From the NCBI RefSeq assembly GCF_013911755.1, contig NZ_JACESP010000018.1:1-64000 (forward strand): DNA of 64,000 nt, written 5' to 3'. This document shows, one piece after another, positions 14,190 to 27,776 of this stretch. The stretch comes from Sphingosinicella sp. (GTDB lineage Bacteria > Pseudomonadota > Alphaproteobacteria > Sphingomonadales > Sphingomonadaceae). The notes below the pieces were generated by a model that saw only the letters and a list, made by a program, of their open reading frames with translations, was not told the origin of the DNA and made no database searches. The position numbers were made by a program, and so were the translations under genes. Each line of letters opens with the position of its first letter. Within the stretch, counting starts at the first letter, position 1.

Positions 14190-16556
14190 TCAAAAACGCG
14201 CGGTGAGTTGCAGCCCCCATTCGCGGGGACGGCCGACCACCATGTTCTGCACGCCGAACGCGGGCACGAATTCGGCGGCGGTGAAATAGTCTTCCTTCGT
14301 CAGATTCTTGCCGAAAATGGCAACCTCGAATGCCTCGCTTGATGATGTCCAGGCGAGACGCGCGTCAACAAGCGTATAGGCCGGCTGCACGATCGAGAGC
14401 GAATTGGCCGGGTCGTGGTAGGTCTTGCTGCGGTGGCTGAGATCGCCACGCACCGTGAGCCCGCCCATCGTTCCCGGCAGATCGAAGCGATACTGCGCGC
14501 CGAGCGCGACCGTCCATGCGGGCGCTTTCGGCAGCTTGTTGGTGATGGGATAGCCCGTACCTGCCGCCAGCGATTGATATTCATTGTGCAGGTAGCCGAC
14601 GCTTGCGTTGAAATCGAGACCGGGAAGCGGCGCGGCGAGAATCTCCGCCTCGAACCCGTAGAGATCGACGCTGCCCGCGTTGTCGACCGTCAGAATGAGG
14701 CCGCCCGTCGTCGGCGAGACGCTGTTGGTCTGCAGCTGCAGATCCTTGTACTGGCTGTAGAAGCCGGCAAGGTTGAAGGTCATCAGCCCGTCCAGCAGAC
14801 GCGACTTCAGGCCCGCCTCATAGGCCGTCAGCTTCTCGGGATCGTACGACTTGAACTCCTCGGGCGTCAGCGGGCGCGGGTTCCAGCCGCCGCTCTTGAA
14901 GCCCTTCGACCACGACGCATAGAGCAGCACATCGTCGCTCGCGCGGTAATCGATGCCGATCTTCGGCGCGAAATTCTTCCACGTGCGCTCGTCGTGCGTC
15001 GGCGGCGTCGCGATGCGGCCCGAATTCGGATAGATCGAATCGATGAAGTAGCGCTTGCGTTCCCAGCTGTAGCGCCCGCCGACGGTGAGCGTCAGCGCGG
15101 GCACCACCTCGTAACTCGCCTGACCGAACACCGCCCAGTTGTTCGTCGTGAGCGCGGTCTGCGGCCGCACGTCGAGATCGAGCAGCGCGTTGAACGGATT
15201 GCCCGCGCCGCCCGCACACGGCAGGCCTGCAACCGGCGGCGGGCAGGGCACGCCGGGAACCAGCGGAATCAGCGCATCGGGCAGCAGTTCGAGCGCATCA
15301 TAGAGCCCCGACGCGAGCAGTGTCTGGTTCAGGTCATGCGCGCGTTCGCGGAAATAATAGCCGCCGACCAGCCAGTGGAGGCGCTTGTCATCGGTCGCGC
15401 CGCTCAGCTGCAATTCCTGGCTGAACTGGTTCTCGCTCTGCACCTCGTCGGTGTGGATGATCGGGAACGGCGACTGGTCCATGTCGACCTGGATTTCCGC
15501 ATCCATCTCGCGGTAGCCGGTGATCGACTTCACGGTGAGCGCCGGGCTTGCCTCCCACGCGATCGTGAGGTTCGTGCCCCACACATCCGCCTTGTCGCGC
15601 GTCGGCCCCGTGCCGTTGCTGACGCGCCGGTCGGACGAGACCCAGCGGTCGTCGAACAGCGAGCCTGCCGGGAGACCGTCCCGCGCGGTAACGAGCGGCG
15701 CGGCGATGGCATTGTAGAGATCGTAAAGACCACCGGGGAACGAGAACGTGTCCGAAAGGCGCTGCGGCGATCCGTTCTGGCGGATGCGCGAGGCATCGAA
15801 CGACAGGTCGACCGTCCAGTCCTCGGACGGGTTCCACGCGATCGCGAAGCGCCCCGCATCGACATTGATGTCGCCAAGGTCGGTGCCGTCCGGGCGGATC
15901 ACGTAGCCGTCCTGGTTCTTGCTGGCGGCAGCGATCTTGATCGCAAGGACATCGGGAATCAGTGGTACCGAAATGCGGCCTTCCACGTCGATGCGGTCGC
16001 GCGCGCCGACCGTCGTGCGCACCTGCCCGGAAAGTTCGTTGCCGGGGCGGGAGGAGATGATGTTGATCGCGCCGCCGATCGTGTTCTTGCCATAGAGCGT
16101 GCCCTGCGGGCCGCGCAGCACCTCGATGCGCTCGATGTCGGACAGGTCCATCATCGCGCCAATCGAGCGCGCGATATAGACGCCGTCGACGTAGACGCCG
16201 ACGCCGGGATCGGTCGGGAAGATGAAGTCGTTCTGGCCGACGCCGCGAATAAAGATCGCCGCGTTGGTGCTGCCGCCGTCGCCCTTGCCCGAATTGATTT
16301 CGACGTTCGGCACATAGGCCGCGACATTGCCGATGTTGGTGACGTCGCGCGCGTTCATCTGCGCCGCGCCGAAGGCGGAAACGGAGAGCGGCGTATCCTG
16401 CAGGCTCTGCTCGCGCTTCTGCGCGGTGACAATGATTTCGGCGATGCCGGTTTCATTGGTGTCCTGCGCGGCGGCCGGCGCGGCGATAAAACCCGCCAAC
16501 AATGCGGACACGGAAATGCCAGCCTTTACGCAGCTGGAAACAGATCTTCGAACCAT
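14190..16556 (-). CDS. TonB-dependent outer-membrane receptor, last gene of carboxylase operon (788 aa)
   Basis: The ATG at 16556 (MVRRSVSSC) has GGGAGGATT upstream and gives a clean signal peptide ending AAPAAAQD. Frames extending further upstream run into the thiolase gene and were rejected. A TonB box-like AEIIVTAQKREQSLQDTPLS, plug motifs IRGVGQNDF and IEVLRGPQGTLYGKNTIGG, and a C-terminal GLQLTARF complete the family pattern. It begins 34 bp after the thiolase on the same strand, so it is probably co-expressed with the carboxylase, ligase and thiolase and may import their substrate. The ligand is an inference from operon position only. Confidence 0.92.
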   Translation of the reverse strand: MVRRSVSSCVKAGISVSALLAGFIAAPAAAQDTNETGIAEIIVTAQKREQSLQDTPLSVSAFGAAQMNARDVTNIGNVAAYVPNVEINSGKGDGGSTNAAIFIRGVGQNDFIFPTDPGVGVYVDGVYIARSIGAMMDLSDIERIEVLRGPQGTLYGKNTIGGAINIISSRPGNELSGQVRTTVGARDRIDVEGRISVPLIPDVLAIKIAAASKNQDGYVIRPDGTDLGDINVDAGRFAIAWNPSEDWTVDLSFDASRIRQNGSPQRLSDTFSFPGGLYDLYNAIAAPLVTARDGLPAGSLFDDRWVSSDRRVSNGTGPTRDKADVWGTNLTIAWEASPALTVKSITGYREMDAEIQVDMDQSPFPIIHTDEVQSENQFSQELQLSGATDDKRLHWLVGGYYFRERAHDLNQTLLASGLYDALELLPDALIPLVPGVPCPPPVAGLPCAGGAGNPFNALLDLDVRPQTALTTNNWAVFGQASYEVVPALTLTVGGRYSWERKRYFIDSIYPNSGRIATPPTHDERTWKNFAPKIGIDYRASDDVLLYASWSKGFKSGGWNPRPLTPEEFKSYDPEKLTAYEAGLKSRLLDGLMTFNLAGFYSQYKDLQLQTNSVSPTTGGLILTVDNAGSVDLYGFEAEILAAPLPGLDFNASVGYLHNEYQSLAAGTGYPITNKLPKAPAWTVALGAQYRFDLPGTMGGLTVRGDLSHRSKTYHDPANSLSIVQPAYTLVDARLAWTSSSEAFEVAIFGKNLTKEDYFTAAEFVPAFGVQNMVVGRPREWGLQLTARF

Positions 16557-16590
16557 GGTGCAATCCTCCCTTTTTCTGGTGGTCTCTGCC

Positions 16591-27137: not shown

Positions 27138-27161
27138 GAGGTCTTCGTTGTCCCTGTCTCG

Positions 27162-27776
27162 TTATGAACCGGTGGCGCCGCGCAGGATGAAAGCGAGCAC
27201 CTGATCGACGGTCTGCTCGCGCTTCGCCTGACCCGCGGAGGGTTTCGACCAGCGCAGATACCAGTTGATGACGCCGAGCATGTTGAACGCGGTGACACGC
27301 ACGTCGCCGTCCACGAGGAGGCCGGCGGCACGCAGACCTTCGAGTTCGGCGACGTAGATGGTCAGGATTTCGCGCTGGATGCGCTTGTTGGCCTTGTTGC
27401 CGCTCGCCGAGAGGCGCTCCTCGTCGATGAAGAAGATGCGCGATTCCCGTCGGTATTGTTCCGAGACGTCGAGATGTTCGCGCACCAGCGCGGCGATGCG
27501 CGCGCGCGGCTCCGAAACGCCTTCGAGCGCGCCGCGCAGGCGGGCAGGAAGCGCTTTCACCGAGCGTTCGAGGATGGCGAGCCAGAGCGCCTCCTTATTC
27601 TCGAAATAGTGGTAGACGTTCGAAACGCTGCGTCCCACCGCGTCGGCGATGTCGCGGATCGAGGTTCCCGCGAAGCCGTTGCGGGCGAACAGCTCCACCG
27701 CGACCTCCACGAGTTCCTCGCGGCCTCGGGCCTCACGGGCTGCGGACGAATTCTTCAGGCTCACGACGCGCGCCAT
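27162..27776 (-). CDS. TetR-family transcriptional regulator heading the carboxylase operon
   Basis: A 204-residue TetR-type repressor. The N-terminal helix-turn-helix reads TSIRDIADAVGRSVSNVYHY followed by FENKEALW. The C-terminal ligand-binding domain (residues ~75-200) is of the KstR2-like broad group; such proteins often bind acyl-CoA or aromatic thioesters. It is the first gene of the minus-strand block, 24 bp before the HyuA gene, and faces the divergent hydrolase-SDR pair. Three palindromic sites in the 290-bp shared gap suggest it represses itself, the carboxylase operon and the divergent pair. Confidence 0.9.
   Translation of the reverse strand: MARVVSLKNSSAAREARGREELVEVAVELFARNGFAGTSIRDIADAVGRSVSNVYHYFENKEALWLAILERSVKALPARLRGALEGVSEPRARIAALVREHLDVSEQYRRESRIFFIDEERLSASGNKANKRIQREILTIYVAELEGLRAAGLLVDGDVRVTAFNMLGVINWYLRWSKPSAGQAKREQTVDQVLAFILRGATGS

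Follow-up and report, generated by a model that had tools for sequence, protein, structure and literature searches.

We analyzed a 64,000-nucleotide stretch of contig NZ_JACESP010000018.1 from Sphingosinicella sp. (the window; all gene coordinates are window positions) and found on its minus strand a ten-gene operon that we read, with a probability of about 0.85, as a TetR-controlled catabolic operon for an aryl-alkyl ketone, encoding a complete five-subunit, biotin-free, ATP-dependent carboxylase of the acetophenone carboxylase (Apc) kind. This reading rests on homology, subunit set, gene order, the fold of the epsilon subunit, motifs and conservation, and all reactions proposed below are modeled on those of characterized relatives. 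The enzyme is of a known kind and belongs to a new subfamily that has its own operon; it is not a proven acetophenone carboxylase. We call the subfamily new because the window's subunits lie in a separate clade, score under the equivalog cut-offs and differ from Apc in four of seven pocket residues.

Operon layout and core carboxylase subunits

The ten genes lie head to tail from 27776 down to 14190 (Table 1), with gaps of at most 34 bases and overlaps of at most 4 bases between adjoining genes; the start codons of the ligase, DUF35, thiolase and TonB receptor genes were set at the ATG nearest the preceding gene. An earlier description made from the letters alone (the sequence-only reading) had listed this same-strand, nearly gap-free series in the same order and within the same limits, and coordinates and Pfam searches bear it out: nine of the ten genes match their expected families (Hydantoinase_A at 2.3e-63 and 1.9e-69 in the two HyuA proteins), the UROD-like gene being the exception. 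Its inventory was sound for these ten genes, but it did not recognize the UROD-like gene as an epsilon subunit and missed a hydrolase and a short-chain dehydrogenase/reductase (SDR) encoded divergently from the operon.

The proposed Apc-type make-up of two HyuA proteins, HyuB and gamma agrees with NCBIfam scores, solved chains and motifs. The top NCBIfam match of every core subunit is an Apc subunit: ApcA for the alpha-prime subunit (NF042960, 450 bits, cut-off 1250; 401.5 bits with the ApcC model), ApcB for the small subunit (NF042974, 153.6 bits, cut-off 250), ApcC for the alpha subunit (NF042975, 660.9 bits, cut-off 1500) and ApcD for the beta subunit (NF042976, 428 bits, cut-off 1500). The best solved relatives are chains of the Apc core 5l9w, with the alpha subunit matching 5l9w_B at 5.1e-182 and the beta subunit 5l9w_A at 3.5e-119. 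Both HyuA proteins keep the three ATP motifs, whereas the fingerprint of alpha (RERIDYAG; R/KERiDsxG in PMC5214803) occurs in the ApcC-like one only, a distribution that agrees with PMC5214803. The 112-aa protein, for which a check against the gamma family had been proposed, matches that family by both Pfam and NCBIfam, and its four cysteines align with those of ApcB. The core genes follow the Apc order A-B-C-D, interrupted after B by the epsilon gene, and the set corresponds to the Apc type as outlined in PMC5214803: two HyuA proteins (alpha and alpha-prime), HyuB and a short gamma, with epsilon also present.

Downstream of the carboxylase genes, the ligase scores 591.6 bits with PRK06155 (cut-off 722). 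The nearest solved chain of the thiolase is BbsB (7pxp_C, 1.2e-71), and the DUF35 protein has as solved relatives the DUF35 protein of 6esq (1.3e-9) and, second nearest, BbsA (7pxp_A, 1.3e-7). The window thus shares with BbsAB a thiolase paired with a DUF35 partner, but its proteins fall short of the equivalog cut-offs of BbsA (52.4 of 250 bits) and BbsB (258.1 of 750 bits). That a ligase and a thiolase follow the carboxylase, as in acetophenone degradation (PMC4729919), had been pointed out by the sequence-only reading and holds.

By analogy with these relatives, the ApcC-like alpha subunit would activate the ketone as an enol phosphate and the ApcA-like alpha-prime subunit would activate bicarbonate as carboxyphosphate, with the ApcD-like and ApcB-like subunits presumably holding the core together and the URO-D-fold epsilon subunit presumably needed to unite both activated substrates. 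The ligase would attach CoA to the beta-keto acid, and the resulting thioester would be cleaved by the thiolase, acting with its DUF35 partner, to acetyl-CoA (or a longer acyl-CoA) and an aryl acyl-CoA. The TonB receptor may take up the compound, and in this lineage the hydrolase and SDR could supply the ketone from ester and alcohol.

Compared with ApcABCDE and the benzoylacetate-CoA ligase of Aromatoleum aromaticum, the operon has the same five subunit kinds, the A-B-C-D order and the ATP and zinc motifs, and both systems have a CoA ligase in the operon and a thiolase as the next step (PMC5214803, PMC4729919). It differs in forming a separate clade, in the place of epsilon, in an alpha-prime subunit without Glu248 and Lys281 and in the four pocket residues. 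Thiolase, DUF35, TonB receptor and TetR genes belong to the operon here, whereas the known operon is described in PMC4729919 as apcABCDE plus bal, induced through two-component systems; according to the same paper, A. aromaticum uses acetophenone through Apc under aerobic conditions. The Hpe/Acv pathway of Rhodococcus and Sphingobium SYK-6 also carboxylates aryl methyl ketones aerobically (PMC9618137) but, unlike the window's system, relies on phosphorylation of the phenol group and on a biotin-dependent carboxylase; that 2022 paper states that its authors were aware of no aerobic aromatic carboxylation pathway besides Hpe. Isophorone carboxylase, considered as a precedent, did not turn up as a term in our literature search.

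Table 1. Genes and sites of the operon and its divergent neighbors, in window positions.
Feature	Position	Strand	Basis
TetR-family regulator	27162..27776	-	TetR_N 1.2e-14, TetR_C_24 3.2e-15; first gene of the operon in relatives
ApcA-like alpha-prime subunit (HyuA-like, 671 aa), presumed bicarbonate kinase	25122..27137	-	Hydantoinase_A, NF042960, tree
ApcB-like small zinc subunit, 112 aa ("gamma" in the naming of PMC5214803)	24780..25118	-	Acetone_carb_G PF08882 2.9e-31, NF042974
Epsilon subunit, diverged URO-D-fold protein, 255 aa	24016..24783	-	AlphaFold2, Foldseek, profile of relatives
ApcC-like alpha subunit (HyuA-like, 713 aa), presumed ketone kinase	21858..23999	-	Hydantoinase_A, NF042975, 5l9w_B, motifs
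ApcD-like beta subunit (HyuB-like, 692 aa)	19766..21844	-	Hydantoinase_B 2.1e-90, NF042976, 5l9w_A, tree
AMP-forming acyl-CoA ligase, presumed beta-keto acid ligase	18148..19764	-	AMP-binding PF00501 1e-73
DUF35/ChsH2-type OB-fold partner of thiolase	17738..18151	-	OB_ChsH2_C PF01796 2.6e-12
Thiolase	16591..17730	-	Thiolase_C_1 PF22691 1.1e-41; BbsB 7pxp_C
TonB-dependent receptor	14190..16556	-	TonB barrel PF00593 2e-46, PF07715 1.6e-22
Alpha/beta hydrolase, divergent from the operon	28067..28936	+	Weak hydrolase family matches
SDR dehydrogenase, divergent, presumed alcohol-to-ketone	28933..29709	+	NF052562 250.1 bits, cut-off 400
Perfect palindrome TAGAACGATCGTTCTA, presumed TetR operator	27848..27863		Sole exact match in the window
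Second palindromic site, preceding the hydrolase gene	28000..28017		Kept in L016, L017, G150

The UROD-like gene as a candidate fifth subunit

Searched alone, the UROD-like protein gave no match above noise to any Pfam or NCBIfam family; its likeness to uroporphyrinogen decarboxylase (URO-D) is shown by its relatives and its predicted fold. The AlphaFold2 model (pLDDT 90.7) has as its top Foldseek match 9fou, the Apc epsilon subunit ApcE, and a profile built from the relatives retrieves ApcE at an E-value of 6.9e-32. With the solved chain 9fou as the ApcE sequence for comparison, Gly92-Pro93, Glu128 (at the end of a barrel strand) and Asn150, in window numbering, are common to the window protein, its relatives and ApcE. 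The invariant Arg77 was dropped as a shared catalytic residue, ApcE having Gln there in the alignment. Compared with URO-D and the MtaA/MtbA-type methyltransferases, the window protein is 255 aa long, has no family match of its own and misses the EAEACG segment, which is conserved in its relatives. A genome with ApcB over the cut-off, sought for its ApcE, was found neither in 397 genomes of the window's family nor in 398 Pseudomonadota.

In the window and its clade the gene sits between B and C, whereas in the known operon it comes after apcD; the latter position is a trait of the known operon and not of the enzyme. A stray heme or methyl-transfer gene was ruled out by the fixed place of the gene in the clade, by homologues after apcD in other Apc-like loci and by the ApcE match. 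The identification of the gene as the fifth (epsilon) subunit of Apc is well supported. According to PMC5214803, the core of A. aromaticum Apc is inactive without epsilon, so its presence here supports a complete subunit set; the same paper calls the fifth subunit elusive, with close orthologues in two other organisms only, and notes that not every operon carries it. Here, an epsilon-like gene is present in 29 of 40 complete Apc-like loci, traced into the family by profile and fold, which opens its role to tests by comparison and mutation. In locus L043 (14554-15554), an epsilon-like gene spans two overlapping frames, by frameshift or sequencing error.

The best known URO-D members convert CH2-COOH into CH3 and CO2. 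Epsilon might conceivably be the site of C-C bond formation, its URO-D-type barrel holding the activated enol by CO2 from carboxyphosphate in the reverse sense, although we consider this rather improbable. Gly92-Pro93, Glu128 and Asn150 would then be the key residues, ATP-dependent aryl-ketone carboxylases of aerobes and anaerobes alike would in general rely on epsilon for catalysis, and the operon would be a widespread route to aryl-alkyl ketone breakdown that starts with carboxylation.

Phylogenetic placement and conservation

For each of HyuB (56 rows) and HyuA (105 rows, with eleven dropped beforehand) we computed a quick tree with SH-aLRT support. The window's HyuB lies inside a 17-row clade (support 100), the alpha-prime subunit inside a 19-row clade (100) within a 50-row branch that holds ApcA (99), and the alpha subunit inside an 18-row clade (100) within a 42-row branch that holds ApcC (96). 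These branches also contain the solved Apc subunits, but at other places, where rows of Bacillota and Chloroflexota are nearest to them. They exclude acetone carboxylase, caprolactamase and N-methylhydantoinase, which sit on long branches and are represented by several partial references, so that their exact places are unsure; in this tree check, which the sequence-only reading had named, the subunits stand apart from the hydantoinase, caprolactamase and acetone carboxylase references. Judged by sequence, the window subunits are members of the Apc radiation, in a clade apart from the solved Apc.

A search with the small subunit gave 65 loci (L numbers) in the genome collection, 22 of which were assigned to the window's clade by tree or by gene order. 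The nine-gene series TetR-A-B-epsilon-C-D-ligase-DUF35-thiolase is complete and in order in 12 of these (L016-L019, L021, L022, L027, L029-L031, L033 and L075, with the epsilon gene of L030 found by profile), including Sphingosinicella microcystinivorans DSM 19791 (L017), Kordiimonas sediminis and metagenome-assembled genomes of Sphingobium, Emcibacter, a gammaproteobacterium, Geobacter and Syntrophaceae; its recurrence in distant phyla shows that the gene order is no accident. Six further clade loci are cut by contig ends (L020, L023, L024 from the delta-proteobacterium NaphS2, L025, L028 and L032), and a TonB-like match follows the thiolase in 10 of the 22. A carboxylation-first route common to sphingomonads, Kordiimonas and hydrocarbon-linked anaerobes would be a little-noticed attack on inert ketones.

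In the window's family, an ApcB match occurs in 10 of 397 genomes, five of this type, four of another Apc-like type (alpha-prime 33-35% identical) and one weak; among 398 Pseudomonadota there are 9, none over the cut-off. A search for close plasmid copies found none, all 873 records with a HyuB match lying below 60% identity (best 35.7%). The second Apc-like type of the window's family (L009, L012, L013 and L014) gave no epsilon match in the short stretch fetched. Five Defluviicoccus loci (L034, L036, L038, L040 and L041) carry an ApcB-like gene 61-63% identical to the window's, with no HyuA or HyuB found within the fetched stretch (up to 20 kb). The NaphS2 genome (L024, L068) combines the type with epsilon between B and C and another Apc-like set.

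It is highly improbable that the operon encodes, in place of such a ketone carboxylase, an acetone carboxylase or one of the ATP-dependent hydrolases (hydantoinase, oxoprolinase or caprolactamase type). These enzymes belong to the same superfamily, CapA is the third-ranked NCBIfam family for both HyuA proteins, and PMC5214803, the 2017 structure paper, gives one characterized enzyme in the Apc branch. The hydrolases, however, consist of HyuA and HyuB only, and acetone carboxylase AcxABC, whose HyuA, HyuB and gamma are of the same superfamily as the window's, has one HyuA, a gamma subunit about 50 residues longer (168 versus 112 aa) and no epsilon; the second HyuA, the short gamma and epsilon set the window apart from families described as lacking them (PMC5214803). 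Scores and trees favor Apc, and a ligase and a thiolase accompany the operon in distant genomes. The enzyme is very probably an Apc-type ATP-dependent ketone carboxylase.

Several observations weigh against this assignment and the operon built around it. All four core subunits lie far under the NCBIfam Apc equivalog cut-offs, and the alpha-prime subunit is equally close to both HyuA chains of 5l9w (381.4 bits for ApcA, 381.1 for ApcC), with Glu248 and Lys281 of the ApcA site replaced by Asn and Asp, a replacement also found in the other clade members examined. The window's epsilon sequence by itself retrieves no relative. Four clade loci depart from the common order: L026 and L077 have no ligase at its place, L035 (from the same isolate as L077) has no TetR gene in front, and L039 consists of A-B-C-D only, with no epsilon. 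The gammaproteobacterial and anaerobe loci lack the hydrolase and the SDR, a consensus promoter scan of the operon strand near the palindrome found none, and no member of the clade has a known activity.

Substrate, neighboring genes and regulation

Four of the seven named residues of the ApcC pocket differ in the window (Leu81 to Thr, Phe281 to His, Gln344 to Glu and Thr345 to Val), and the same four changes recur in nine clade members examined, from sphingomonads to Desulfobacteraceae; these shared changes suggest, at the level of sequence, one kind of substrate across the clade, not quite that of the solved Apc. We then compared aromatic catabolism genes among the carriers (genomes, G numbers), scanning for PaaA, BoxB and PaaK in 20 (19 clade loci plus the window, with L023, L039 and L077 left out) and for BenA and PobA in 15 (the 20 minus five genomes of anaerobic lineages).

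Acetophenone or a ring-substituted acetophenone, yielding (substituted) benzoyl-CoA as in A. aromaticum, is a tentative candidate whose odds we place somewhat below even. Apc is the closest characterized enzyme, and the thiolase is nearest to BbsB, the benzoylsuccinyl-CoA thiolase. The operon of L028 has boxC upstream, next to a 474-residue frame of the length of that genome's BoxB frame (the frame itself was not scanned), and that of L026 has upstream a 2-oxoacid oxidoreductase, Had and an anaerobic benzoate regulator; BoxB occurs in 7 of the 20 carriers. The pocket changes count against this substrate, as do BoxB, not found in the window's genome or in seven other alphaproteobacterial carriers, and BenA and PobA, over the cut-off in 0 and 2 of 15 carriers; in the window's genome none of the three exceeds its cut-off, other benzoate routes not having been searched. 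With subunits below the cut-offs, a clade of their own and paa genes nearby, the acetophenone that the sequence-only reading inferred, possibly of lignin or bisphenol origin, is no more than a candidate.

We consider a benzyl ketone such as phenylacetone, whose product phenylacetyl-CoA would feed the paa pathway, unlikely. A paa cluster (paaE, D, C, B, A, a J-type thiolase, I, G and Z) lies at 1384-9650, 4.5 kb past the operon, and occupies this place in three genomes of the genus (window, G150 and G398). PaaA is found in 14 of 20 carriers (13 over the cut-off; G401 partial), among them all five sphingomonad carriers (G000, G397-G400, three of one genus), compared with 21 of 199 genomes in the family sample and 46 of 118 genomes from the order of Kordiimonas, both counts including the carriers. 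Five of the six carriers without PaaA are of anaerobic lineages, but the sixth, G412, has BoxB and PobA. In Kordiimonas, moreover, paa lies about 0.48 Mb from the operon on the same contig, benzoyl-CoA genes flank the operon in L026 and L028, and the co-occurrence may mirror general aromatic catabolism in related carriers. PaaK matches in 20 of 20 carriers (12 over the cut-off) imply another source of phenylacetyl-CoA, and ruled out a missing PaaK as a sign that the operon supplies it. Taken together, the neighboring genes hint at phenylacetyl-CoA as the product in this genus and at benzoyl-CoA in two other genomes. L026 also has, between TetR and the alpha-prime gene (5876-7669), a thiamine diphosphate enzyme of the acetolactate synthase kind, with a relative upstream in L035 (1-954).

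The hydrolase is kept divergent in 7 of 21 clade loci and the SDR in 6 of 21 (L020 is cut before the SDR), all from sphingomonad-like genomes, Kordiimonas or Emcibacter. A palindrome separates the TetR gene from this pair (Table 1), and 11 of the 19 TetR upstream regions examined (window, L016-L018, L020, L022, L026-L028, L032 and L075) have GAAC-N4-GTTC among their best palindromes, L029 and L031 have it with one mismatch and L019 has a weaker form; L025 and L030 have other palindromes, and none of this kind was found in the TetR upstream regions of L021, L024 and L033. The hydrolase, the dehydrogenase and the palindromic operator probably belong to the operon system.

In the window, operator-like sites also occur before paaA, in the paaI-paaG interval and in the interval separating the LuxR and TonB genes. 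The core AACGnnCGTT resembles the Thermus PaaR site. A shared operator linking paa to the operon was rejected, these sites scoring near chance (11-15, where one shuffled window reached 12.4 at best; a site inside the thiolase gene scores 15.3) and hardly recurring elsewhere: of ten paa regions from other carriers, only L095 has a site above 10 within 200 bases before paaA. The search gave no tie between paa and the operon outside this genus, which also counts against the benzyl ketone. The interval between operon and paa cluster (10552-14126) holds a LuxR-type regulator and a second TonB receptor, an arrangement also present in G150 and G398; this receptor gene lies on the plus strand (11814-14126) and faces the end of the operon.

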